A stretch of 64,000 nt of DNA from Neopestalotiopsis rosae (Eukaryota; Ascomycota; Sordariomycetes; Amphisphaeriales; Sporocadaceae), in assembly GCA_023078685.1 (NCBI GenBank), contig JALGAS010000002.1, forward strand, positions 5,580,001 through 5,644,000, given 5' to 3'. Within the stretch, counting starts at the first letter, position 1. Each line of letters opens with the position of its first letter. Shown piece by piece: positions 6,276 to 27,351 of the stretch. The translations under genes and the position numbers were made by a program. The notes under the pieces were generated by a model. It saw nothing but the letters and a program-made list of their open reading frames with translations, did not search any database and had not been told where the DNA came from.

Positions 6276-9200
6276 TCAGAAGGCCCACTGTGTCAACCAA
6301 TTTTCTACCCACACGTCACTAACTGCATCCAATTTCTGCAGCGTCTCCGACATGCCCACCGAGGCTTTAGTATCCAAGACAAGAGGGTATTCCTCCATCC
6401 TCGCTAACCCCTTGAAATAGTCAACAAGTTTGACCCCAGGGTTGAGTGATGCGTCCTCTGCCCGAGAAGCGCTTTCACCCAATGCATCTATCCACTTCTC
6501 AAATGGCACAGTCTCCATCTCTCCCGTAGGGTCAATGATCCGGCGAACAGTGGGTAGCAGTTGGGCCCAGGTGGTATGCCTCGGGTTCATCGCGTGGTAG
6601 ACCTTTGCGCCGTGTGGGACGCTCGCCAAATCCGGCTGCGCCGTCACCATTTCCACAATCACCCGCGCGAGGAGGTCCACCGGAACCCAAGTGATGGTCT
6701 CCGCCTGCCCGAGCGACGAGGGAAACTGGCGCAGGTATTTCGAACTGGCAATCAAACGGGGAAACCACTCCTTCTTTGGCCAGACCCCAGCGGCGGTCGT
6801 GGGACCAGCAATCTGGCCGACGCGGCAGATTGTAGTGGCGACGCCTGCCTCTCTGGCCGCCTGGTCCATCAGGCGTTCGGCAACAAACTTTGCCTGCGCG
6901 TAGCCAATCGCCTGGGGGGTGCGCCAGTCCTCGCAGACGCCCTCGGGGATCGGTGCGGTGCCTGGCTGGTCATTGACAGCGTGCCAGTTGGAAACAGCGC
7001 CGACGCTGGACGTGAAGAAGATGTCAGCATTGCGGGCCGAGTGCGCCGACAAGTCGATGAGGCGGCGGACGGCTCCGATCTGGCTGCGAAATGAGTCGAG
7101 GCTGAGATTGAAGTCGACGTGCCAGGCCATGTGGACAATCGTCGTGACTTCTTGCTGGAGGGTCGCGTACAGCTCTTGTGGCTCCAGACCAAAGTATGGC
7201 TCTGCAAGATCCGCTTCGAAACACTGGACCTCCTTGGGGAGTGGCCCAAAGTCGAGGTTGGCCCGTAGGTTGTTCAATCGCTCTAGACTATCCTGACCCC
7301 GTATAGGGCAATATATCATTGACACTCGGGGGCTCTTGATCAGGGCTTCAAGCACACACGCGCCAAGCGAGCCGGATGCACCGGTCAACAAGACAACAAG
7401 TGTATCAGAGGGTGTCTTGTGGATCGACCTAGCGGGACGCGGAAGATCTTGAGCATAAACGCTGTACAGGCTTTGCATCTTCTGCTCGCCGGTCATTGAT
7501 CCCTGTATGGGTGTTTTGCCCTCTGCTATATCGGACGTGACTTGGATGAGAGATTCCACAGTGGGGTTGTAGTAGATAGTTCTAGCTTCCAATGTCTGCG
7601 TCTTTCCAAGTGCTGAGATCAGTCGGTTGAGCTTCTTCAGAATAATGACGACTTGTAGTGAATCGAGCCCTCGCTCGAATAAGTCCATGTTGGGGGCTAG
7701 TTCATCAATGTTGATGTCTGTAGATGTGGCGACAATAGTTCGAACCTTGCGAGGTATGTGGCTGAGGTCCTCTGTGGTATCATGGGGTATAGAATCGGAG
7801 TCTCCCTCGTTTCGTTCATAAGAGCATCAATCTCTGCTGAGTACGAGTCTAGCGTCATTTTACGCTGTACTGTGCCCTTCCCCGTCTTCTGCATCGGCTT
7901 GGTGGCTGATGTGAACATGATCATGTTCTTGTGGATTCTACCATAAGATGGAATTTTCTTGTTTGCTTCTTGTACAACTGACCAGATTGTGTCCAGCAGC
8001 TCTGCCTCCCCGGTACTACTCTCTGGGGGAGCGGATGACGGCTCGATGAGTAGACTTGATTGAGGTCGTCCAAAACCCATGACGAGAGCTGCGCCAACGG
8101 CTGGGCATGTCTCAATAACGCTTTCCATCTCATAAGGATTCAGCTTCTCGGCCGTAGAAAAGACGATGGGGTCATCGACACGGCCTTTGTACAGCCAAAT
8201 GTCATCCTTGGAAGGATGCTTCTGGAAAATATCCTTTGTGGGCCATTCATCTAATTCGGGATAGGTACTGAAGATTCCTTGGTAGATCTCGAGCTTGGGA
8301 TTACGGATTATGACCTGTTCGTACAAGTCGTCCGAAACGGGTCGATACTCATGCCCCAGGACTGGACTGACCTTGATATAGGCCCAGTCTTCGCGATCAC
8401 ACACTTGAATTGGAAACACTCCAGTTTCCGTCGTGGCGAAACAATTCAGCAACCGGGTACGAGAGCTGAGACGGTCGCCTACGTCTTGAGGCAAAAAGCC
8501 GCCGCCGAATGTAATCTGCTTAAGCCGGCCCAGATTCTCCAGATACGTGGGATCTTTGGCTAGGTCGATCAACGTCCATGGAGCTAGGACAGTGTGCTGC
8601 GGATTGCCGTGGACATGGATGCCGTTGACAATATCAGCAGACGGCGGAAATGGGCCAAGGATAGCGGTGAAGCCAGAGTAGATGCATCCAGGTAAGAACA
8701 GCGAGAAGCCCGCAGAATGGAAAACGGGAACTGGTAGATAAACTCGAGTACCTCTGCACATAGCGGGAAATGTTTCTTGGTGTCCCAATGAAGGTAGTGC
8801 CGTAAATGCATCAAGCGGCGCAATCGTACCGTGAGTCTGAATGACAAGCTTCGGTAGACTAGTTGAACCCGATGTATGCAGAACGACGAACGGGTCTGAT
8901 TTGGCTTCTTCAAAGGTCTTGTTGTATGGATATGGGCTGTTGAGTCTATCATCATCGTCGCCAAGCCAGTATTGCAACCCAGGAATCTCAAGAACCCGCA
9001 TTGGCCTCGCGGACAAGACTTGGCTGACCATGGGGAAGGGGAAGTTTTCAGCTCTCAAATACACGTGGCAATCGGCTTCCTCGAACAGGGACAAGTTGGC
9101 ATCAAGGGTGTTTCGCAGTGAGGTGAGAAGGACCTTGTAACCGGTCTTCACCGATGCTAGAACCAAGATGGCATACACAACATCCTGAGGCCCCATGTAG

Positions 9201-9430
9201 GCCAGAGTCGGGAAGTTCTTCAGCGGTTTTCCAAGATTGTGCTCAATGTACCACGAACAACGGTCCACGGCCCGCGAGAATTCTTTCGCAGTGATATCAC
9301 GAAAGCCATCTGCGGGATCTCTGGCCTTTGCAACAGAGTAGAGGACGCGATCTGGGTCTGATTGTGCTATCTCTTCGACTAGGGTAGGCAGCAGCCGCCT
9401 CCCAGCGTTTTCGGGTAGAATTGATGTCAT
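6276..9430 (-). pseudogene. NRPS-like A-T-R reductase, interrupted by one frameshift
   Basis: The order is adenylation, carrier and thioester-reductase domains, as in fungal NRPS-like carboxylate reductases, which activate an acid with ATP, tether it to phosphopantetheine and release an aldehyde or alcohol with NAD(P)H. The first frame (9430-7697, ATG at 9430) has A3 HTSGST (185-190), A5 FATTETG (331-337), GRVDD (416-420) and the A10 lysine motif KTGKGTVQRK (515-524). The second frame (to 6276) has the carrier motif LFERGLDSLQ, the Rossmann motif TGASGSLG, TSSVG and the SDR pair YAQAK. After EIDAL the frame is lost. The other frame, opening at about 7819, continues YERNEGDSDS... into the carrier domain, so one base is missing in CTTAT at about 7817-7822. 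No GT-AG intron bridges this. It is either a sequencing error or a real inactivating deletion. The enzyme would otherwise be about 1050 residues and complete. Confidence 0.85.
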
Positions 9431-11205: not shown

Positions 11206-14200
11206 ATGGAGACCCTTGCTGCTATCGGTCTGGCCTCAAACATCTTGCAGTTCGCGGAGTTTGCACACAAGTTGCTCTCGACGGGCAATGAGTTGTACGA
11301 GTCCGTTTCTGGCACCTCCTCGAAGACGCTTGAGCTTGAGAAGATATACGGGAGTCTGAGCAACTTCAGTCTCAACCTCGAGAAAAGTAATGCAGCGCAG
11401 GATTTCGCCAACCTTCTGACACCGAGGGACACTGAAGAATATCTTCCCGAGTTGCATGATTTTACCCTTCGAAGTCTTGCACGCGATTGCAAGAGTGTTT
11501 GCGATGAACTTCTACAGCTGCTGAATCGTCTCAAAGTTTCCGATGGAAGATGGCGAGCTTACAAAAGCTTCAAGGTAGCCATCATGACGTTGCATGAGAG
11601 CAAAAGAATTGGTGGCATGGAGGAACGCATTGCCCGCTTTCAGCAGACTATCGCGTCCCACTTCCTTCCGATCTTGACGTATGTCAGCCAGTCTCTTAAA
11701 AGATTCGGGTTGATGGGCTAACGCTATCATAGTACCCAGCAGTCGGCCTTGATGGGCGCGGTAACCAATCTGAGGACCGAAAGCCATCAGTTGAGCGTTG
11801 ATCAATCGCAAAAGCTACTCCAAGTCTCGAAGCAGCTCAGCAAGATTGAGAGTGCGCTGAGCAGACAGCAAGCAGTCGATGAAGAGCTACCTTTCGTCAT
11901 AGCGTCAGAAGCTTCTGAAGACGACACCCGGACAGCAGCCAAGGTGCAGGTCCTAACGAAAAGTATGGTGGCCCTTTCGATCACGCAAAGAGTTATGCGA
12001 GACATAGCCAGAGAGCAAGAATTCTTGTCAAGCTTGACATTCCCCAGCAGGCCAGTACGCCATGAGAGAATACCATTAGCACACAGAAAGACTTTTCAAT
12101 GGGCGCTTAATACTGAAATGCCATCGTTGAACTCCCCCAAAGTACAACAGGAGGAATCCGACGCCGACAAGACGCTCCTGGCTTCTTGGCTTCGCCATGG
12201 CAATGGAATATTTTGGGTCAGTGGCAAGCCTGGATCGGGCAAGAGCACGCTCATGAAATATGTGGCCGATCATGAGAAGACCGAAAACATGTTACAGCAA
12301 TGGGCCCATCCAAAGCGGATTGTAATCACATCTCACTACTTCTGGAGCGCGGGAACGCCGATGCAAAGATCAGAGCTTGGTCTGCTGCGCACCCTCTTGT
12401 TTGAGGTATTTCGTGCTTGCCCCGACTTGATACCAGCTGTTTGTGCGGAACGATGGGCAGCAACTGGTACCATATCATTCAAATCTCTTACCGACTGGAC
12501 AAGCCACGAGTTATTGGGTATCCTTCGGAGTATCTCAAACGACACCAACTTGAAAACCCGGCACTGTTTCTTCATTGATGGTGTGGACGAGTTTGAGGGG
12601 AATTTTCACGATCTTTCCGCAACCTTGAAAAGCTTGGCCAACTCCGAGAACTTTAAGTTATGCTTATCAAGTCGTCCTATTAATGTGCTGAGGGACTCCT
12701 TTGGTCAGGACTCCGATAAGATGCTCTACATCCATGAGCTCACCAAGAAGGACATTCAAGAGTTTACGACAAATCGTCTAAAGGACCACCCTCGGTGGAA
12801 GACGGGCCGTTTCAGCGCGGACGACAAGATTGCCATCATCAATGAAATCACGGAAAGTGCTGAAGGTGTCTTCTTGTGGGTGTTTCTTGTCACCAATTCC
12901 TTGCTTGATGGTTTATCCAATGGAGACACAAGACGGGACTTGCAAAATAGACTTGAAAGTCTCCCCAAAGATCTGAATGGGTTCTTCAAACACATGCTTG
13001 ACTCGATAGACCCGATCTACACCGAGAATATGGCACATACTCTGCGAGTCTCAACCAATGCTCACGAGCCTTTGCATTACCTCATATTCGATATGATTGA
13101 TTCGGTGCATGATGGGCATGTTGCTGAGGCGCTGGGCTACGACTTCGGCGACCTCTACAACCTTGGAGGAGGCCGTAGTGGCGGCGGCGACCTCCACGAC
13201 ATGGTCACAACCGGACCTCTTCAACTTGAAGAAATTGCGCAAGAGGACTGTAAGCGCCGCATCAATGCACGATGCGGCGGTCTCATAGACGTCAGCTCGA
13301 GTGGCGTGGTCGAATTTCTGCATCGCACAGTTCGCGATTTCCTCGTGCTACGAGACATGAGTGATTACCTGGAGTCAAAGAGTGCTTCAATGTTCAATCC
13401 CAACATCGCTACGCTGAGGTCATACCTATCTGTACTACAAAGCGGAATGACACCATTCGGCTGGAGATTTTGGGGTGTACAAGAGGTTTTCAGACAGGCT
13501 CTTGGATACGCTAATGCCGCCCTACAGGAGGACTTCGATACCGCCTTTGAGGAACTTGAGTTTCTTGGTGTCTGGGCTCAGACTGAAGCAGCCGGTACGA
13601 TTTGGAGTCAACATTCAGAATCCCACCCCGATGAGTTATTCCGACGGGAAGTGCTCAAGGCTGGGATTGAGAAATTCGTGTGTAGAAAGCTGGAGCAAAG
13701 CCCCCTCTATTTTGACAGTCTACACTATCCGCCTCTGAGCGTGATACTCAAGGAGGCGAACTTGACACATCAACATGTCAGCATCATGGCGAGCCTTATC
13801 AGGGCCAACAAGTCCCTGAGAATACACGACGATGTAGGTCATCTGTCATCTATAACAAGGAGTTTTCTGACTTGCTTCCAGCGCTATGTCGTCATGCGAC
13901 TTGAGGAGTTCTTCTCCTATATGTTTTTGAACCATGTTGTCAAGTCCGAGGTAGTTCAGACACAGGAGGACACTGACAAGGACGAGATGGATAGTGGAAC
14001 CGAGATGACGATAATGAGCATCGATGAGCTGTTCAAGCCAAACAAGAGCCAAAGCCCAGCATCACGGCTACCGGAACGCTTCTTCTCGCATCCAGAAACC
14101 TCTGCAAATGCGATTCTAGCCTCTTTGCTGGAAGAGAAGCAGGTCGTCCCTGTCGATGCGAATTTAGAAACACAAAAGTTGGCAATGATTGCAGTAGCAC

Positions 14201-14457
14201 CGACGAGCCTCGACATAAATTGCCTCAAACGTTTCGCAGCTATAATGAACAAAGTTGCCAACATAGGAACCAGGCTTGGGTTGAATGTTGACATGTTTCT
14301 TTCTGGCTTCTTACCTCACCTACCAGTTAGTGCGAGGAGCGTCGTGGCTTACGGCACTCGCCGTACTGGTGAGCTGCCGAGGACTTTCGCAGTAAATAGA
14401 AAGAGAGATGCAGATGATTATACTGCATCGAGTCGCAAAAAGACGAAGATAGCATAA
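11206..14457 (+). CDS. Fungal STAND receptor: HeLo-like N-terminal domain plus NACHT
   Basis: Two exons, 11206-11678 and 11733-14457, separated by a 54-nt GT-AG intron; the spliced product is 1065 residues. The N-terminus (METLAAIGLASNILQFAEFA...) matches the fungal N-terminal STAND domain (Helo_like_N type), a helical domain thought to act as a cell-death effector. A coiled linker follows. The NACHT core then has Walker A GKPGSGKST (about 322-330), Walker B FFIDGVDEFEG (about 437-447) and the sensor-like LCLSSRP (about 467-473). The rest is helical, resembling the DUF7791-type region after many fungal NACHT domains. No WD40, ankyrin or TPR repeats follow, so the ligand-sensing part is absent or unrecognised. 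By family it would be a cytosolic NOD-like receptor for non-self recognition. It has no sigma-type amyloid motif at its N-terminus. The frame is intact to TAA. Confidence 0.88.
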
Positions 14458-15462: not shown

Positions 15463-18400
15463 CTAGTAGAAGCCTGGGGGCCCCCTCCAGTAACTTGGGT
15501 CGGCACGGCACATTCGGGAAAATAGCTCTAGCTTCTTAACCACTTTGTGAGAGTCCCATCTCTTTTTCGGCTCGGGCTCAAGCATGTGTGATTCGATGAG
15601 TTCCAGGAAATCGTTGATATAATTCGAACAGCGGGGTTTTTTCCGTAGTCTCTCAATCCACTCTGTTACGGTAGGTTTGATGACGGCAAACTTGCCGCCA
15701 CTCCCATCTTCAACCCGAAAGAAAGTATCAGTCTCAAAGCCATTCTCAGGGTCGAGTTCCATCCTTTGGGTGACGAAATCTTCACTGGCTGATTCGTAGC
15801 CTTCCAAACACCAAGTGACAAATTCCAGGAAGGCGCAGCCCAGCGAGAATATGTCGGAACTACGAGAAGGCTTTCCGTTAGGCATGTCGAATTCGGGTGC
15901 CCGATAGGTTTCGGTCCGGGCCATGGTCTCTGGATCTTGTCTAAATCTCGAGAATCTCGTAACAAGACGGGCGAGACCAAAATCATTCCTGCAACAGCGG
16001 TGTTAGTGCTGGGCGTCACCCCCGCTCTTTCTCTCTCTCTGGGTACTCCATGGAGTCTCGGGTCCAAGCAAACTTACAGTACCAGCTCGTTTTGTCTCTC
16101 AAACCATAGAATGCTTTCTGCTTTGATGTCTCCATGCATCTCAAACAGCTTTGCATAATTCTCTGTGCCCGAGGGGATTTCCCTGAGTTGCTTGTTGCGC
16201 TCGTTGTGAAAAGACTGCAGAGCCAGAGCCAGCCTGTGGCATTGATCGGCCATCCATTGAGGGAGCTTGTTTCGACTGCTAATGACATCATGCAACCTCC
16301 AGAAGTCCCACAATGTCCCATCTGCACAGGGAAATATGAGATAGTATTTAGTCGGGCCGTGCTTATTGCGTATCTCGAACGTGGCCAATAAGTTGACGAA
16401 ATTCCGGTTGCTATCGTCGTTCAATCTGAGTAGAGGCGCGACTTCTTTCTTGAACTCTTCTGGATTCGTTGTCAGATGTTTCAGAGCGAATATTTTGTAC
16501 TTTTCTCCTTTTTGTGATCCCAAGTCGAAGTGGTCGGCATGGAATACGACTCGTGTAACGGTGCTGAAGCCGCCCTCGTGATCCCCACTAGGGCCGACTG
16601 CCATCGTGTTTGAGGATCCACTTGTCTTGTTCTCTGAATAATCATTTCCAACAATGGGGAGGACATCCTCAGTACTGAAGACGTAGTGAGCATGTGGCCT
16701 CGATCGTTGGTCCGTTTGCTCAAGCCTCTTCAAGTACGGGGCATTCAGTCCATACGCCCACAAATAGAAAGTACGATGTCGCCAGGAGGTCTTGTCTTGT
16801 AGATACGAATGCTCCTTCGAGCAGTTCTGGCAGAGCATCGATGAACGATTTCCTCGCTCTTCTCGGGTAGGGGGCAGGCACATGTCACTGACCCCCTCCT
16901 GGACCAAGGAGTAAAATTTCTTTTCGAGGTCACTGCATAACAGTGCTGCCAGGAGTTTCAGACTTTTTTTCATACTCTTGCCGCCGTGGCAAACTGCGTC
17001 TGCAAAGGTTTTCTGATGCTCTTCGGAAAGTTGCTTGCTGCCGGACAGTTTGCTAATAACGACCAAGACACGCTCGGGAGTCAAGATCTCGATCAATCTT
17101 TTACGAGGTAGGAAAAATCTTGCGGCGGCCGCCCCCAATGGCGTAACAACAGAATCTTTCAATTCATCTTTGATACTGCCAATAAGTTCTTCCGGCTCTT
17201 CGGTTGGTGGTATATCTCCTGCCGGATAAGTTTGTCGGGATTGGCGTTGGTCTTGCTCATAGTAATCATTGCCGCGATCGTAGCATATATGAACTTGATC
17301 GTTAAACAACCCCTCCCAATGCCGGGAAGGGCCGACAGAAGCCCCTATGATGTTCACGTGTACCTTTGTGCCTGGAAGATATGGTGAGTTGAGATCTCCA
17401 CACTATTAGGGGAGAAGCCTGTTCTTACCAGAATCTATAGACTCGAAGGAACTACCTTCTGTATATTGACTGGAACCTAAATTGGCTCGAGACGAAGCGC
17501 CCACGCTCTCACCAAAATATTCAAGAAAACCGTCGTTCAACACAGGACTCTCGTCCTCTAGATCCCTATCTTGGTCTATTGACTTATCATCTAGCCAGTT
17601 TCTGACCTTGCGAAGCGCTGCTAGTCGTGGGCGAACCTCGGTTTCGGGCGATTCATCCGCCCACGGGAGGGATGCAAGGGAGAATTCGTGAACGTGGTCC
17701 GCAATGTGATCCAGAAGTGTTTCTGGATCAATATTATCGTCTTGAGCGTTCATAACACACAATGGACATGTCGTGATGGCAAGGGGTGTTGTTTTTTCAC
17801 AAACTTCTATTAGCTTGTCGAAGTCTTCTGCGCGGATAGCATCACCATGCTCTAATTCCATATGGCGCAGGAAATTCTCGCGACTCTGGAAAATCTCAGA
17901 AGTATCGGCCGTGGTGCAGGCAACACACTCCCAGTACTTGGACGACCTGTGTTCTTGCTGCATATGATTTTTCCACGAATCGCGCGAGATAAAAAGAGCA
18001 GCTTCTGTTCTGCAGTCTGGAAAGATGCATGTGAAGGGGTACAGATCAGAAGAAAGATGCTTTCTGTTGATTTGGGCATTAATGATGTTTTCTTGAATAA
18101 TACCTGGCTATAAGATGGCGACTTACCTCCACAAGATTTGCGACGAACCTTTCCTGAGCAAACCCAAATCTTCCTTGAGCAAAGTTTGGTGGCAGCAAGG
18201 GCAGCGGAACGACGCTCTCTTGTCGTCCCATGGAGGTGGATGCGGCCATCCCGACTTCTTCAATGATACTGACTTCAGGCTCATGGATGTTTGAGAAGGT
18301 AGTTTGCTCTTCAGAGCACGCCCTTCGACTGTTCCCTCTGAAGGCGCGGTCGCTGACATGCCGCCTTTGTGTGGTGGGTTGGGGGTAGATTGGTTTTCCG

Positions 18401-19413
18401 GTGCTGGTGGCGGCTCTTCGCTTAGGCTCTTAGCTGGTTCAGAATGTGTCTGAAGACTGACAACATGAGTAGCTCCTTCAGAAGTGGGTGCATCTGCGTC
18501 AGAGATTGTCTCATTCAGTATCGCCAGTTTCTCTGCGTGTCTCTTGGCGTAGGCAAATCGGTGGCGGCGTCGAAGATTAGCGAAGATAAGGAGCTCAATG
18601 GTCGAGCGATGAGCATCTTCTAACTTTTGAAGTTCAGATGTGAAGTTCAGATCTCGCCCGCCATCTTGCGCTATTTTCGTGGCATACTGTCTAGGATGCG
18701 CCAAAATTATAGTCATTAGATACGCCTTGAGAGCTCGGAGATCCTCAATATCGATTTTAGATGTTTGTTTGTAGTCATCGTCCTCTAGGTGGTAATAATC
18801 TTGAATGGTGAAGTTTGCATCTGCTTTCCGCAACCGAGAAGCAGTTCCAGAAGCTCTTATGGCTGTGCCTACGCGAATGAGTTGATCGAGAACGGACTCA
18901 GTGTCCGTCATAGCTTGTTCCAGAGGAGTCTTTCGTGACTGTGCATCATCGGGCTTGTTACTAACCGAAATCGATTCATCTGACCATGGAGTGAAAGTAT
19001 CAGATTCACCGCTTGATGAATTGCCGTGATCTATGGCGTCATCTTCTTGAACAGTGTATTCGCTGATGCCTGCGCATGAATCGGATCCTGCTCCGCTATT
19101 AGATGAGCACTCGCCTCTAGAATCTTATCATACCGAGATAAATGCAGTCTTGTGCAAATGTCTTAAGCGTTGAAAGAAGGCTTAATACCACAGTCCGAAC
19201 CGCCGGCTGGGAGATGAGACGCTGGTCAAGGCTGGATTGAGATGTTGCTGAAGCCCCAACTCCTGCGGCCCAAAGGTTGAAGTCCAGGACTCGATTTTCA
19301 GCCCATTCTTTTTTCACCGGGTCTTCACTTAAACAGCATGTTTCAAATGTCTGCCGTGTTTCCTCGGTGGCTTTAAAGATTGCTTGAGGTGGGAGGCCAG
19401 CGGAAACATCCAT
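15463..19413 (-). CDS. C2H2 zinc-finger / protein kinase fusion
   Basis: A five-exon model: 19413-19134, 19087-18127, 18063-17429, 17371-16078 and 15988-15463, giving about 1231 residues. Introns of 46, 63, 57 and 89 nt all keep frame; for intron 1 an acceptor 18 nt further is equally good. The N-terminal helical part (DFNLWAAGVGASATSQSSLD) belongs to a common fungal family. Next come zinc-binding segments: FRCPCC, YPFTCIFPDC...WKNHMQQEH, and WECVACTT...FLRHMELEH. The C-terminal third is a complete protein kinase: glycine loop GGFSTV (about 892), ALK lysine (about 922), catalytic loop HGDIKAESIL (about 1040; HGD instead of HRD, common in fungi), NDFGLARL formed across the last intron, YRAPE and SDIFSLGC. 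It should be a cytosolic or nuclear Ser/Thr kinase. Its place between a NACHT receptor and Ses-type genes suggests a non-self response role, which is inference. Confidence 0.85.
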
Positions 19414-20474: not shown

Positions 20475-20990
20475 AAGCATATCTCCAACCTCGTTCTGAT
20501 CTTCAGACTCAAACTGGCAGCCACCGTCGCGGACTTCTCTCGAGCACGATCACCAACCACCCTTGAGGACACCACAAATCACTATGAGGTTGTCAAAGAT
20601 GACACAGACCTCCGAGAAGCTTTCTATGAAGCGCGCCGAGATCTGTTTCTTGTCAAAGAGCCTCTACAAGCAGCCAAATGCCACTCAGCCAAAGACTCCC
20701 AAAGCGCCGTGGCCTTGCTGGAGCAGTGCAACGCCAACGGAGAGCTGGGCAAGAGAATTTTCAACTCCGTCGCCCAAGCACAGGAGACCTCAAGGTTCGA
20801 AGATTATGAAGAGTTCTTTAGGCAAGAGAGTCAGGGAAGAACGGCGGAGGTTTTGGTGTTGGGATTGATGTGAGATGTATGTGATCTGGCCGAGAACTTT
20901 GCAATTCAACACAAGGTCAAGGGATCGATTCGCGGTTACGTTGATCGAACTCTACTTGGAGAGATCGACACCCTTAACGACCCTTCCTAG
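20475..20990 (+). pseudogene. SesA-like domain remnant with premature stop
   Basis: This plus-strand frame reads through KLAATVADFSRARSPTTLED, HYEVVKDDTDLREAFYEARR, LFLVKEPLQAAK, LLEQCNANGELGKRIFNSVA and TSRFEDYEEFFRQESQGR up to LVLGLM. TGA then stands at 20871-20873, and the same frame resumes DVCDLAENFAIQHKVKGSIR until TAG at 20988-20990. The pattern (DLREAF, L.LV...L.AAK, C...A.L...IF..VA, TSR.E.Y) fits the SesA-type N-terminal domain of fungal NACHT and Ses proteins. There is an in-frame TAG just before 20475 and no credible ATG, so the 5' end is missing or lies beyond an intron. The TGA could be a mutated CGA. It ends tail-to-tail with the SesB-like gene. It lacks its own C-terminal amyloid motif. 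A frame-shifted 101-codon ATG frame over the same bases is a shadow. Confidence 0.62.
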
Positions 20991-22138
20991 GCAAAATTTA
21001 CAGGCCCAGAGAAAGTAGCCCCAGGAAAATGTTTACCGTTTCCTTTGCTAATATTCTGAGTACCGCCAAAAGCGTTGAATTGATCGCCCTGCCCGTAATT
21101 ATTATATGCCGAATTGGGTGGTTTCTTGATCTGTTCCTCTTCAACCGGTTGCTTGGCAGCTGAACTCCTGATTTGTGTTTCCCATCTGACCAGCTCGCCG
21201 AGTAGCCTTTTAAAGCCATTATCGTCCACAGAGCTAAACTTGACCATATTGCTATGGTTGGCGTGGATGCTGATTGCATTGTAACTTTCGAGGGAAGCCG
21301 ATTCCTTGGAGACCACTTTTCTATCCCCGAACAGGGGCAGTTCTTCATAAAAACACGTAACCTCGAGACCTCGGCCTGCATTTTCCTGTTCCCGTACCAT
21401 GGCCCAGAACCGATCTTGGACAGACTGTAGGTACTCGTTGTCTGTCTCTAAAATTTTCAATAACGAATTATTGGTGGACTTAACGATTCCAAGGGCCCAA
21501 GCTGGTATGCTGGTCCAGTCGGCCATCCAGGATCCCCTGTGAGGAGTGCCTAAGAATATGATGCCTTTGGTGCAGTCGAATATGCTACGGAGGTGCGATT
21601 CGGGGTTGTTTCGGGAGAGAAGAATGGCTTCCTTGCAGACGAGGCCGCCCAGACTGTGAGCGACGAAGATGATCGGTCGGTAGGATGCATTGTGACAGGC
21701 TCTATCGGTTGATAGGTCGTGCAAGAGATTCGTAGCATGATCGACCAGGCCATTTGTTGATGCGACCGATTTACGCACGATATACGCGTCGTAGCCGTAC
21801 GTGAGTATGCGAGCCCTGCTGAGCTTGGGTGGCAGGAGCGTCTCGGGCCAAGGTTTGGACTGCCCATTGGCGGTCCAAGTGCTGTCCCGGTTGCCGGTCA
21901 GACCGTGGACAAAACAGATGTCGATCGTGGCATCGCAGCAGTCGTGCAGAACTTGTACTCCATCTGGGAATGACGGACCCAGGCTGCTTTGAAGAGGTGG
22001 CCCGAGATCCGTTTCGTGGCGCGTTGGATTAGGCAGGTCGCGGTAGTGATTTGTCTCCCGCTGTTGATGAATATCTGGCGAATTGTCGGCAGCCCGATAT
22101 GGCTTCTGCCATGGAAATTTTGCTCGTAACTTACCCAT
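20987..22138 (-). CDS. SesB-like alpha/beta hydrolase with C-terminal amyloid-type motif
   Basis: A single exon of 383 residues; ATG at 22138 (MGKLRAKFPW). It is a DUF676/PGAP1-like serine hydrolase. The oxyanion region is FVHGLTGNRDSTW (about 76-88), the nucleophile elbow is AHSLGG (Ser162), FLGTPHRG is at about 195-202, and the likely catalytic His is in IHANHSNMVKF (about 291-301). After a charged linker (EEEQIKKPPNSAYNN) the last 32 residues change character: Gly/Asn-rich, GDQFNAFGGTQN, then ISKGNGKHFPGATF, then SGPVNFA. This matches the layout of SesB of the fungal sigma system: a hydrolase effector whose C-terminal motif takes up an amyloid fold templated by a receptor, followed by cell death. 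The same motif ends the DUF7580-like protein 0.9 kb upstream. The frame is intact. Confidence 0.88.
   Translation of the reverse strand: MGKLRAKFPWQKPYRAADNSPDIHQQRETNHYRDLPNPTRHETDLGPPLQSSLGPSFPDGVQVLHDCCDATIDICFVHGLTGNRDSTWTANGQSKPWPETLLPPKLSRARILTYGYDAYIVRKSVASTNGLVDHATNLLHDLSTDRACHNASYRPIIFVAHSLGGLVCKEAILLSRNNPESHLRSIFDCTKGIIFLGTPHRGSWMADWTSIPAWALGIVKSTNNSLLKILETDNEYLQSVQDRFWAMVREQENAGRGLEVTCFYEELPLFGDRKVVSKESASLESYNAISIHANHSNMVKFSSVDDNGFKRLLGELVRWETQIRSSAAKQPVEEEQIKKPPNSAYNNYGQGDQFNAFGGTQNISKGNGKHFPGATFSGPVNFA
20993..21085 (-). other. Sigma-like amyloid signalling motif, copy 1
   Basis: Codes for 31 C-terminal residues of the SesB-like protein. The pattern is D-x-[FY]-N-A-x-G-G-x-Q-N-[IV]-S-[KR]-G-x-G, then x-x-F-x-G-x-x-F-x-G-P-V-N-F. 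It aligns gap-free with copy 2 (18 of 31 identical). One Ala follows before the stop. Confidence 0.8.
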
Positions 22139-23005
22139 CAATGATTACGTTGTGGAATGGATGAAAAAATAGCTCAAGTCGGTGGAGATCACCACACTTA
22201 TGCAAGTCTTATCTACCAAAGGGCAAAGAATGTGAAGTTATGAGGAAGGAAGAGAGCCGGAAATGCCTGATGGGTGTGACTTAACCGAGGCTCGATGGCC
22301 GTACGGTGAGGGGATTCTAATCAGGCATTTCGCTCAAGACACGCCTGCACGGTGACCAATCTTTATCCACAACTGGTGTGAATTCCTGGCATCTGTTTTG
22401 TACCGTCTGCGTAACACTTTATGAGATCAATTGGATGTGTTATGTGTGTGTCGTGTGTACTTGTGAAGGAGGGGTGCGTATGGGAAAGAGGAGGGTGCGG
22501 ATGTGGACTGCCAATTATGGGCCACTAGGCACGGCCCGGACCCGTCCGCCTAGCATAAGTGGTGATACACATTGGAAGCGAATTGCTGAGTGGACTCGAA
22601 GGTGTGGATTATGGCTTCGTGTCACGAGAGGGATTTTTTGACCTTGCAGCCGCTGATACTGGTTTTAGCGGAAACTCGGGAACCCACAAGACAGTTGTCT
22701 GCTGATTTGAAAAAGGCATGGGTACAATAAAGCCTGCCTGGAGCTTCATTCACAACGGAAGGCGAGGCGCTGATGTGTCTGTCGTGGCCCCGAGAATTAT
22801 AGATGCTCCTTTGAATCCAGAACCCCAGCCCGATACATAGAGGTAATTCACAATTTTGTCGAGTGATGAAGTCTTGATCGGCTCATGACCGAGCCTTTCA
22901 CAGTTACTCTGTATACGCGTTCAAGAGAACGCGAGTTTTATTCTTCATCTCTTGATGAATAGTGTCGTCGTATTCTCGCGAAGTCTTATTAGCTGTCCGT
23001 GACAG
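22139..23005. other. Intergenic between the two motif-bearing genes
   Basis: Promoter side of the SesB-like gene and 3' side of the DUF7580-like gene; both are on minus, so they are tandem rather than divergent. An 87-codon plus frame at 22378-22641 has no family likeness. No receptor gene is hidden here. Confidence 0.55.
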
Positions 23006-24972
23006 CTAGTTGCTCCCACTCCCTTCACTGAAATTAACAGGTCCGTTAAAGATAGGCCCAGAGAAGTTGTAACCACCGCCTCTGCTAACGTTCTGATTGC
23101 CTCCACGAGCATTATATATGTCATTAGGGCCATTGTGGATAGAATTGCTACTCGCGTGTTGCAAGGTGCAATCAATTGTTGCAGCAGTACTTGGCTCCGA
23201 AAAGGCGAGTCTGCCGACATCTGGAATGCCGGTAATCCTAGCATCATCACATAAACGTTCCAGTGGAAGAACGACGTGCGTGTATAATGCGTTTCGTCTG
23301 TGTCTAACCCCTGTCTGATCCTGACCCTCAGTCGGTGACGGGACATGGAAACAGCTGGAATCCAGACACTTACTCACGGCGTCTTTGTAGATCGAGCTCG
23401 CTTCGCTATTCTGTAGACCCAGTTCAGGCCAGTTTTTGCATCTGATGATGCTCCGACACGTTGCGAGGTCGTTGTTTATTTGCTTCTCTATAGGTGATGT
23501 CTCGGCATGTGCAGAAGGTGGTCGATCATGGCATATAGCGACGAGTAGAACACCCAAAGCAAGAACTCTGGGATAGCGGTGGTAGACATGCCGGCTGTCA
23601 TAATGCTCTGCGGGCGCAGACTCTTCGGATAAGGAGGGCCTGAACGCTAAGCAAGGTTTGGCCGGGTTGATCTCCTCGGGCTCGCCTTCTCGCATGAAGT
23701 GAACAGAGTCAGTTGTCCATGGCGTTTTCATGAAGTCAGAGCTGTAGTACCGCCATACCGCTTTCGCGAGAGTATATGCTAGGAAAATTTTTGCCTTGGG
23801 TAGAAGTCGACTGTTCTTCAATATGTAGGAAAGCGACACGCTCCGAGCTTCTGTGAGCACCACTAGTTCATCGTGCATATCTGAATCGTGAAGTTCATAA
23901 AGGTGCTCATCAACGATTTTGAGTTGCATGCACACGCAGCCGAAACTGCGACTGAGGAGAGTACAGAATCTGCCCGACTGGATGATGTCCATCCCAACCC
24001 GAGGTGAAGGTGGAGGTAGAAGTTGATGTTGAGGTTGAGATTGAGGTTTTTGTGTCCCAAGATTATCTTCGGCGAATCGAACCGATTTCAATTCCCTTCG
24101 TCGGTTAATGAGCGGGGTTCTATAGGGATAGGGAAGTTGTCATACTTGGGAACCTGGAATCGCATTTGTTGCCATTCGGTCTTCTCAAGGCGTGGACTGG
24201 CAGGTACGCCGGAAAAAAGCATATCAAATAGAACATGGTTTTGAACTTCCTTTACCTGAGCTACCAGCCTTAGCCTCGCCCAGTGCTCCTTAGGCGCGCT
24301 GTGGTTTTCAACGTCGGAACATGTACATTGGAAATGCCGAGATAGTGTTGCGTGTAAAAGCTTGTGAACATTGGCAGGATACTCATCGGATGGTTCGATC
24401 AACTCCTTCAACATCTTTCCATTCGAGATCTCTGGTCGCTGCTGGTGCATACTTAAATGGTTGAGTGAGATGATGATGTCGAGATTTGAGAGAAATATTT
24501 CGACTCTCTCACGGCCGTTCAATGCAAATGCCCTTATTGATTTAGATACTTCAGGGTTGGTTGAGCGAGGTCCATAAGATGATTGACGCTTTAATTTGTG
24601 AAGTGATGGAAACAATGGGCCGGTTTTCAGTGGCTTCTTTGGCCACTATATTAGAGATCGCAAGTTAGTTCCAATGAAGCTTTCATCCTGTGCAGATCTG
24701 GGATGGGCATTCACCGTGCAAACTGCTTCAAGCTGTTTGAGGAGGCTAGGGAGTCTCTCGGCGATTCTCTCCTCAGATCCGATCAGCGGACGTTCAAGGG
24801 CCATATGAACTTCCAAGAGCTGTGCCATAAGAGTGCTCAGTTTCTTTTGCAAGTATTTCTGCTGGGTGTCTTTGCTCGTAAGTTCGAAAGCTCCATTTGC
24901 GGTTGCTTCTGCCATTTTGAGAGTGGCGTTAATGGCTAATTCCCTTAGCTCTCCGGTTTGCATGGCTTCCAT
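23006..24972 (-). CDS. DUF7580-like protein with C-terminal amyloid-type motif
   Basis: Model of three exons: 24972-24715, 24645-24146 and 24095-23006, giving 615 residues. Intron 1 (69 nt) has a CTAAC branch site and removes an in-frame TAG. Intron 2 (50 nt, GTATGA...AAG) is less certain because its acceptor is AAG; without it the frame shifts near 24090. The N-terminal half is helical. The part after KSVRFAED (AKIFLAYTLAKAVWRYYSSD, TPWTTDSVHFM, VYHRYPRVLALGVLLVAICH) resembles the DUF7580 domain of fungal proteins found with cell-death and incompatibility genes. The end carries GPNDIYNARGGNQN, VSRGGGYNFSGPIF, NGPVNF and the tail SEGSGSN. By analogy it may be an effector or regulator recruited through the amyloid motif. 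The function of the main domain is unknown. Confidence 0.75.
23030..23122 (-). other. Sigma-like amyloid signalling motif, copy 2
   Basis: Codes for 31 residues near the end of the DUF7580-like protein, collinear with copy 1. Differences are mainly conservative (F/Y, I/V, K/R). A seven-residue Ser/Gly tail follows. Confidence 0.8.
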
Positions 24973-25823
24973 AATTAAAATGATGATGACAAAATAATAA
25001 TAAATAACAATATTTCAAATGTGTAAAGTGATTAATTCTTGTAAATTACGGAGCAGTTATCACGGCGTCACACTGAACCCAGTTTATTCTGAGTATAAGG
25101 TATGACTTTAGGTATTCGCGAAGGTTCACCAGCTCGGCGAAGAATTAAATACGTAAGATGGTCGGGGCCGGGCGGGACGTGCAGCTGGCCGTGGTGGGAC
25201 CACCTGCCAGGCTGCCCGGTTGGCGCCATGTCAAGTCGAATTCCATTTCACCATGGGGCTATTCATCGATTCTATTCGATGGTCACAGATAATACTATGA
25301 CTGCACTGCAATCTGGTTACTTGGGCATATTTCATTCTGACATACAGTAATTCAAAACTTGTTCCCCCAAACTTGATATTTCAGATTGCAGTTCATTCTA
25401 ACAATTAACACATTAAATCATTTCGATACCTCCAAATAGAACTCGAGACCGAAGCCGCAACACTAGGGACACTAGAGATGTTCCGCATCGTGTTGCATAC
25501 ACTGCTATTTGTGACGGTGCAATGGTCGGAATTCGGACGACGACATGATCACGGTGGTTGATTGATTCCTCGGGTCAGCTTGATTGTCCCCCCTTACATA
25601 GCTGCGCCGTGCTGCTGAGATCCCTGGAGCTGGAGTGTCGCAACTGTTGAAGCAACACCGTGAAAAAGACGAAGTGTTGGCTGTTGGCTGTTGGCTGTTG
25701 GCTGTTGGCTGCAGGATACCATGCCAACGTTCAACCCTCTAACCTTTTCAGCATGATGTGGATACGCACCTATTTGATATCTCATACCTTTCCCCCTCAC
25801 GACATTTCCCTTTACTCGGCAAT
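24973..25823. other. Divergent intergenic region with heptamer array
   Basis: Shared upstream region of the DUF7580-like gene (minus) and the O-methyltransferase gene (plus). It contains the TGTTGGC array at 25675-25709. The methyltransferase frame is open upstream of 25824 to an ATG at 25758, so a longer N-terminus is possible. Confidence 0.5.
25675..25709. repeat. TGTTGGC heptamer array
   Basis: Five perfect copies of TGTTGGC, about 115 bp upstream of the methyltransferase start. The period of seven is not a codon multiple and the array lies outside coding sequence. Confidence 0.92.
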
Positions 25824-27351
25824 ATGACAGCAACTCGAGTCTCTCCAGTATATACTGACATGATGGCATCCAACAAAGAACACGATCTCTTGGCTCTTGT
25901 TGAGGGAGTAGAAGCTATAGCTGCAGATGCACAGAGAGGCAATCATCCTCAGAATGAATCAATTCGACGTCGTCTAGGTGAGGCGGGCCTGAAGCTATCA
26001 TTGGCCATGGAGGCACCTCACGACACCGTGCACAGGATTGGAAATACCGTCAGTTGCGAACTCTTCTCTCCACATTTCAGTGGTCACGAAGTATCCTCGC
26101 TAATAGGGAAAGGTCCAGCCTCTGCAATCAGCGCTTGCTTCCGTTGGCATCAAGACGGGAATTTTCAAGACTTTGGCCGGGTACGAAAACGGTTCAACAG
26201 TTACCAACGATGAACTATCGCAGAAGACGAATATCGATCCCGCCTTGATGAGTAAGTTACAAGTGCTTAATCTTACGGCGCGCGAGCGCGGGGACTCATC
26301 TTGTCTATAGGGCGCCTTTTGCGATACTACCAGTCCTTGGGCATGGTATCTCAGCTGGGGCCTGATAACTATGGTCCAAGTAGCACTACAAGGAACATGG
26401 TGTCGCCCATATGTAGTATTGGGATAAACTTCTAGTGAGCGCCCTCTTCCTAGCCTGACTATATTCATATTGCATGACTCACATTGAGTGTATCATAGCT
26501 CCCAAGTATTGGCCAAAGCCTTCATCTCGGTCCCTCAATTCCTGGAAAAGATTAGATATACCAGCCCATCTGATCCCAGCTTCTGTGCGTGGAACATTGG
26601 CTGGGAGACGGAAGATCCGCCGTGGGTATGGCTGCAGACTAGGCCGGAGCTCGCCAAATACGTCTCAGATTGGATGGCAGTGCAGCGCGAAGGCCTCCCA
26701 AGTTTTCTGGACGCAGTCGACTTTGAAACCGAGTTCGGAAAGGGTATTACCAATGATTCAACTCCACTCGTCGTCGACATGGGCGGTGGTCTGGGTCATC
26801 AGTGCGTCCTCTTCCGACAGAAGTATCCGAATCTTCCAGGCCGCGTCATCTTGCAAGATCAGCCGCACGTCATCGAGCAGGTTCGATCGACTCCGCTACC
26901 TGGCTTTGGAAAAAGTGCCGTAGAGGCTCAGGTTCACGACTTGATGATGCCGCAGCCTATCAAAGGTAAGTAGCCTCCAGTCCCAATTTTGATCTATAGG
27001 GAGTTGTAGTTGATCTGAACGGGTGTAGGGGCTCGCGCGTATTACCTGCGCAATGTTCTCCATGACTTTCCTGATCACGTCTGTCAAAAGATTCTAGAGC
27101 AAATCAAGGCTAGCATGACGGCAGATTCGGTGGTGTTGATTGATGAAATGGTTCTTCCCGAGTCTAATGCGCCTTCCAGAGCTGCTCAGATGGATATGGC
27201 AATGCTTCTGTGTCTGGCTGCCAAGGAACGTTCAGTGGGGGAATGGAAGGATTTGCTTCATACTTCCGGGTTCAAGATTGTTCAACAGTACACATACTCC
27301 AAGGAGTTTCAGGACGCCGTGTTGGTGGCGGTCCCTGAAGAGTGGGAATAG
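25824..27351 (+). CDS. SAM-dependent O-methyltransferase
   Basis: Five exons: 25824-26048, 26107-26251, 26311-26434, 26499-26965 and 27029-27351. The four GT-AG introns of 58-64 nt all restore frame, giving 427 residues, the usual length for fungal secondary-metabolite O-methyltransferases. The N-terminal dimerisation/winged-helix part reads PLQSALASVGIKTGIFKTLA and DPALMRRLLRYYQSLGMV. The SAM site is VVDMGGGLGH (about 256-265). The catalytic base region is LRNVLHDFPD (His at about 332), and IDEMVLPE lies before the end. It would transfer methyl from S-adenosylmethionine to a hydroxyl of an aromatic or polyketide-type substrate in the cytosol. The substrate cannot be told. The NRPS-like and FAD remnants 15 kb away may be relics of the same pathway. 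The start at 25824 (MTATRV) is preferred; 25758 is an alternative. Confidence 0.88.

Follow-up and report, generated by a model that had tools for sequence, protein, structure and literature searches.

The amyloid motif sigma of Nectria haematococca belongs to the ses locus (sesA, sesB and HET-eN), which is the closest described system to the locus reported here, found in a 64,000-nucleotide stretch of Neopestalotiopsis rosae DNA (contig JALGAS010000002.1, 5,580,001 to 5,644,000; hereafter the window, from whose first letter all positions are counted). In Nectria, sesA lies beside SesB on the opposite strand (Graziani 2004, PMC516043). Sigma has been divided into submotifs A (GxGxQFNxx) and B (GGTQNINT) (Daskalov 2012). 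Sigma effectors named in the literature are sesA, sesB, NAD and others. A further Nectria protein with the motif, EEU38904.1, is left unexplained there, and no gene for a signal transduction ATPase with numerous domains (STAND) adjoins its gene. In Chaetomium globosum, the HELLP/SBP/PNT1 system likewise has one amyloid motif on a lipase-type and a second effector, but the motif is PP, not sigma, and HELLP is HeLo-like, with no kinase-like part described in the accessible text (PMC5485727). The HET-S/NWD2 system of Podospora anserina resembles our locus in its C-terminal amyloid motif and presumed effector switch, whereas its motif and effector domains are others and its receptor is adjacent. 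The window comes from a genome of 17 contigs (53.8 Mb), and its genes are fungal, with the closest relatives in Fusarium, Colletotrichum and Ilyonectria. Two of them, a SesB-type alpha/beta hydrolase and a DUF7580 protein, end in the same sigma tail, and both are probably effectors of fungal sigma amyloid signalling at a partly decayed ses locus.

The hydrolase gene (20987..22138, an open reading frame (ORF) of 383 residues in a single exon) and the DUF7580 gene (23006..24972) form a tandem pair on the minus strand. The C-termini of their products align without a gap over 31 residues with 18 identities, exactly as the original prediction had counted. These cores occupy 20993..21085 in the hydrolase, where the whole motif measures about 42 residues, and 23030..23122 in the DUF7580 protein, where the Pfam stretch covers 23027-23146 and the tail residues 570-609. 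Two small corrections apply to the genes: the hydrolase starts with the ATG at 22138, and the DUF7580 gene reaches 24972 with two probable introns. The two proteins are otherwise unlike, as had been claimed, for BLASTP gives one significant stretch, at the C-termini (22/42 identities, E = 4e-10), and the next has E = 0.22. Shuffling the DUF7580 core 20,000 times produced at most 10 identities (mean 3.2; observed 18), and shuffles of the whole tail scored no more than 64, compared with 112 for the real alignment. The Pfam family PF17106 (NACHT_sigma) matches the SesB tail with 64.2 bits, above its curated cut-off of 27.6, and the DUF7580 tail with 21.7-22.7 bits in protein scans and 27.4 bits in the genome search. 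Thus the latter tail remains under the cut-off, yet it is found by an independent profile of 54 SesB-homologue tails, in which neither window tail was included. This profile matches both window proteins, with 71.3 bits for SesB and 27.8 bits for the DUF7580 protein (E 2.5e-7 for the window), and on the DUF7580 tail it gives 32.1 bits versus a maximum of 12.8 among 4,996 reported of 5,000 shuffles. The two proteins therefore share a tail, and both copies of it belong to the sigma family, in agreement with the first assignment.

By eye, the submotif order is A-B-A in both window tails, the first A of the DUF7580 tail being degenerate. The tails are 53-55% identical, and a similar likeness of sigma motifs within clusters has been reported (Daskalov 2012). 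By comparing 71 SesB tails (the window's own and 70 of 120 listed homologues; 50 were omitted because their ends fell outside a loose motif pattern), the tail nearest to that of the DUF7580 protein was the window's own, with a score of 112, tied with P0015, and with 18 identities versus 17. Moreover, the ending GPVNF is common to both window tails and occurs in none of the 120 listed SesB homologues. The DNA of the cores is identical at 59 of 93 nucleotides, and the third base at 7 of the 18 shared core residues. With the DNA so diverged, the match of the tails represents no recent copy, and there is no support for the tail having been duplicated or gene-converted recently. No direct repeats were found around the two sigma genes; one pair of inverted repeats lies upstream of them. 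A protein search with the DUF7580 tail alone gave four candidates, none with E <= 10, although exact shared words were needed and distant relatives would escape. In the PDB, the sigma alignment retrieved three QnrB1 rows (E 0.14-0.15), which were judged to be chance.

The DUF7580 gene is predicted to have three exons (24972-24715, 24645-24146 and 24095-23006), according to a splice model with GT..AG borders and the branch-like sequences ACTAAC and ATTAAC. Removing two probable introns, one of 69 nt (24714-24646) and one of 50 nt (24145-24096), joins the three open pieces into 615 residues, and the homologue P0003 (Fusarium falciforme FALCPG4_007813) begins similarly at the N-terminus. A frameshifted or dead gene was considered and tentatively rejected, as the frame change near 24100 is explicable by the probable 50-nt intron. 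The annotated C-terminus of P0003, a long DUF7580 relative, leaves the family abruptly; it may be mis-spliced, and a sigma tail could exist there. On the spliced model, DUF7580 (PF24476) scores 89.3 bits with a cut-off of 27, at residues 177-534 (23252..24375, spanning intron 2), and the end of this domain is encoded by the same exon as the sigma core. A profile from 16 DUF7580 proteins matches protein kinases, with MLKL pseudokinases at the top, although the sequence match is weak. The structure model of P0003, which is not the window protein and has low confidence (predicted local distance difference test, pLDDT, of 46), agrees with kinase likeness; in its structural comparison MLKL takes rank 34 of 50, and BRAF, CRAF and CK1 stand higher. 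By family profile or fold, the DUF7580 family is thus kinase-like, which the original prediction had overlooked. When the close DUF7580 subfamily was searched by sequence against the PDB, it gave 0 matches.

Active protein kinases carry the motifs HRD and DFG. Neither HRD nor a DFG-type triplet is present in the 615 residues of the DUF7580 protein, which is kinase-like and apparently catalytically dead. Its N-terminal part has no Pfam match, and the P0003 model shows an N-terminal helix at a confidence too low for judging a four-helix bundle (HeLo/4HB). Elsewhere in the genome, the paralogue L023 (G000 C11:3265021-3268740) encodes a HeLo domain (358-1023 within L023) and after it DUF7580 (1081-2268 within L023), an MLKL-like layout with no sigma. 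Its single-sequence matches to kinases are weak (IRE1 with E 0.08; NCBIfam MAD6 with 20.5 bits versus a cut-off of 460). The resemblance to MLKL thus consists of the kinase-like domain, nearest to MLKL in the profile search, with HeLo added in the paralogue. Its limits are the weak sequence match, the structural rank and a four-helix bundle that is only conjectural for the window protein. Unlike in MLKL, a sigma amyloid tail sits on the window protein itself.

The hydrolase contains both the serine motif HSLGG and the histidine region HANHSNMV, and DUF676 matches it with 22.9 bits (residues 2-383 scanned). It agrees with Fusarium SesB Q6PX79 at 293 of 382 aligned positions (77%). With residues 2-383 as the query, 1,405 homologues were obtained, 120 of which are listed, and all of the 51 best carry a precomputed PF17106 match. 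The hydrolase is shown by these comparisons of sequence to be a true SesB, orthologous to that of the ses locus. On the opposite strand it is adjoined by a remnant of sesA. A genome search with PF17107 (SesA) found seven places, and the best was 20559-20888 on the plus strand. Piece 1 of the remnant (20475..20870, plus strand) contains the SesA domain (61 bits) and is closed by a TGA at 20871-20873; no in-frame ATG lies between the preceding stop and the SesA domain, although a start in an upstream exon is possible. Piece 2 (20874..20987, plus strand) has neither a Pfam match on its own nor a sigma tail, and its frame closes with a TAG (20988-20990) that overlaps the SesB stop. Instead of an intact sesA with a sigma tail, there is a remnant that a stop interrupts, that lacks the tail and in which no in-frame start was seen, so this is a ses locus that no longer has a working sesA. 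Repeat-induced point mutation (RIP) was rejected as the cause of the decay because RIP indices at sesA are not elevated. By its gene content, the locus is a partly decayed remnant of the published ses locus, an aspect that had also been missed. It shares with that locus the SesB orthologue, the opposite-strand sesA and the sigma tail on SesB, but sesA is broken and lacks the tail, no sigma-bearing NOD-like receptor (NLR) is seen in the window or was found in the genome, and there is an extra DUF7580-sigma gene.

The original prediction implied a receptor with the sigma motif. It was sought in the window and by five genome-wide queries of limited sensitivity (PF17106 and four tail queries) and was not found, only these two genes being returned. 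Three of the five queries recovered both tails and the other two SesB alone; because two queries miss the known DUF7580 tail, the absence of a receptor carries limited weight. In a six-frame sigma scan of the window, only the two tails exceeded the threshold and the next row had E 5.3, although an intron-split motif could escape. The nearest NLR-like gene (NPHP3_N/NACHT; 11206..14457, plus strand) lies 6.5 kb from SesB. It has a short N-terminal ORF with no Pfam match over the cut-off, and it was rejected as the receptor since the six-frame scan shows no sigma in it. The scan thus shows no neighbouring NLR with the N-terminal sigma motif expected of a ses locus. Throughout the genome, 279 family matches to nucleotide-binding domains (NBDs) were merged into at least 188 loci. 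The upstream regions of 60 of these showed no sigma above the threshold, with rows at E 5.4 and 7.7 in two of them, and here again intron-split motifs could escape.

It is possible, if rather doubtful, that this is an ordinary ses locus, where the two effectors obey an NLR with a sigma motif encoded elsewhere in the genome and the DUF7580 protein is one more class of effector in addition to sesA, sesB, NAD and others. The number of NBD loci, with 60 scanned closely, leaves room for such a receptor. Furthermore, receptor genes may hold introns near the motif, as HET-eN does (Daskalov 2012), non-adjacent pairs are suspected (Wojciechowski 2022), and a diverged receptor motif could escape just as the DUF7580 tail escaped two queries. 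On the other hand, the genome-wide queries yield just the two genes, although three of them were able to catch two tails as different as these. The lack of a receptor in the same queries would suit another explanation, in which the receptor is gone and the SesB and DUF7580 proteins propagate as a prion pair by themselves. Ses of N. haematococca, as found, comprises only SesA and SesB (PMC516043), and the het-s prion gene kept beside an inactivated nwd2 is a precedent (PMC3321046). However, the absence of the receptor is unproven and no prion phenotype is known for this fungus, and we consider a receptor-free pair unlikely. The same low probability applies to its fuller form, in which the amyloid motif on an MLKL-like, kinase-type effector forms with SesB a receptor-independent prion switch that replaces SesA/HET-eN at the ses locus. 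A third explanation, also improbable, is a relic from which receptor and sesA have gone, so that tails without partners drift and the DUF7580 tail has diverged accordingly. The broken sesA and the weaker sigma of the DUF7580 protein compared with SesB are in line with it, but both frames are open through the tail end, the window tails are mutually nearest among those compared, and SesB has kept its 77% identity to Fusarium SesB. Finally, a chance or low-complexity likeness of two tails rich in N, Q, G and aromatic residues (25 of 42 residues in one, 23 of 40 in the other) is refuted, as composition-matched shuffles never approach the real score and the profile built without either tail detects both.

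We hypothesize that the SesB and DUF7580 proteins act as sigma effectors in the following way. Each carries its sigma tail C-terminal to a globular effector domain, and the tail would be soluble at rest. When a sigma-fold template meets the tail, the tail would refold to amyloid; the template may be an oligomerised receptor encoded elsewhere in the genome or a partner protein already in the prion state. The amyloid would then spread to both proteins, cluster them and activate both. Activated SesB would work as a lipase or esterase, and the DUF7580 protein would be the second effector, probably via its N-terminal helical part, by resemblance to MLKL. In this scheme the splice sites, the amyloid state, cross-seeding, activation and toxicity are all inferred.

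Some further genes of the window were noted. At 15463-19413 on the minus strand, fragments resemble a C2H2 and protein-kinase gene (Pkinase 23.9 bits and zf-C2H2_2 13.9 bits, both under the cut-off); a crude profile comparison of DUF7580 with this kinase gene gave a probability of 2.7%. ORF pieces at 25758-27351 on the plus strand resemble an O-methyltransferase, and the piece at 26488-26970 scores 16 bits, under the cut-off. Two adjoining ORFs at 6276-9430 on the minus strand look by eye like an adenylation enzyme and then a reductase.

The pairing of sigma with DUF7580 had been called less familiar, and the literature bears this out. No sigma motif on a kinase-like protein was found in the accessible parts of the papers searched, supplements excluded (PMC5485727, PMC9815663, PMC12261475, PMC7889193, PMC12881547, PMC12258605, PMC3321046, PMC516043), and DUF7580 is named in no paper of the library searched. 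The protein EEU38904.1 might be of the same kind as the DUF7580-sigma protein. According to a 2025 review, some HELL domains occur in proteins with a kinase or pseudokinase domain (PMC12881547), so the combination of a HeLo-type with a kinase-like domain is already known. The pairing of sigma with a lipase, SesB, is known as well, and it is the kinase-like sigma partner that appears to be new. We therefore regard the DUF7580-sigma protein as a new effector type within a known amyloid signalling family.

The finding gives fungal amyloid signalling one more class of effector, and it suggests that DUF7580 may be a domain of kinase-like type, perhaps with a relation to MLKL. Since a receptor is apparently lacking, the locus is well suited to the question whether sigma proteins can run as a prion alone. 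In animals, the amyloid template and the executioner are separate proteins, namely kinases with the RIP homotypic interaction motif (RHIM) and MLKL. If the receptor-independent switch were true, the amyloid template and an MLKL-like executioner would be fused in one polypeptide. If the tail does switch the DUF7580 protein, it would mean that fungi placed the amyloid trigger directly on an MLKL-like protein, which would bear on the evolution of necroptosis-type death.

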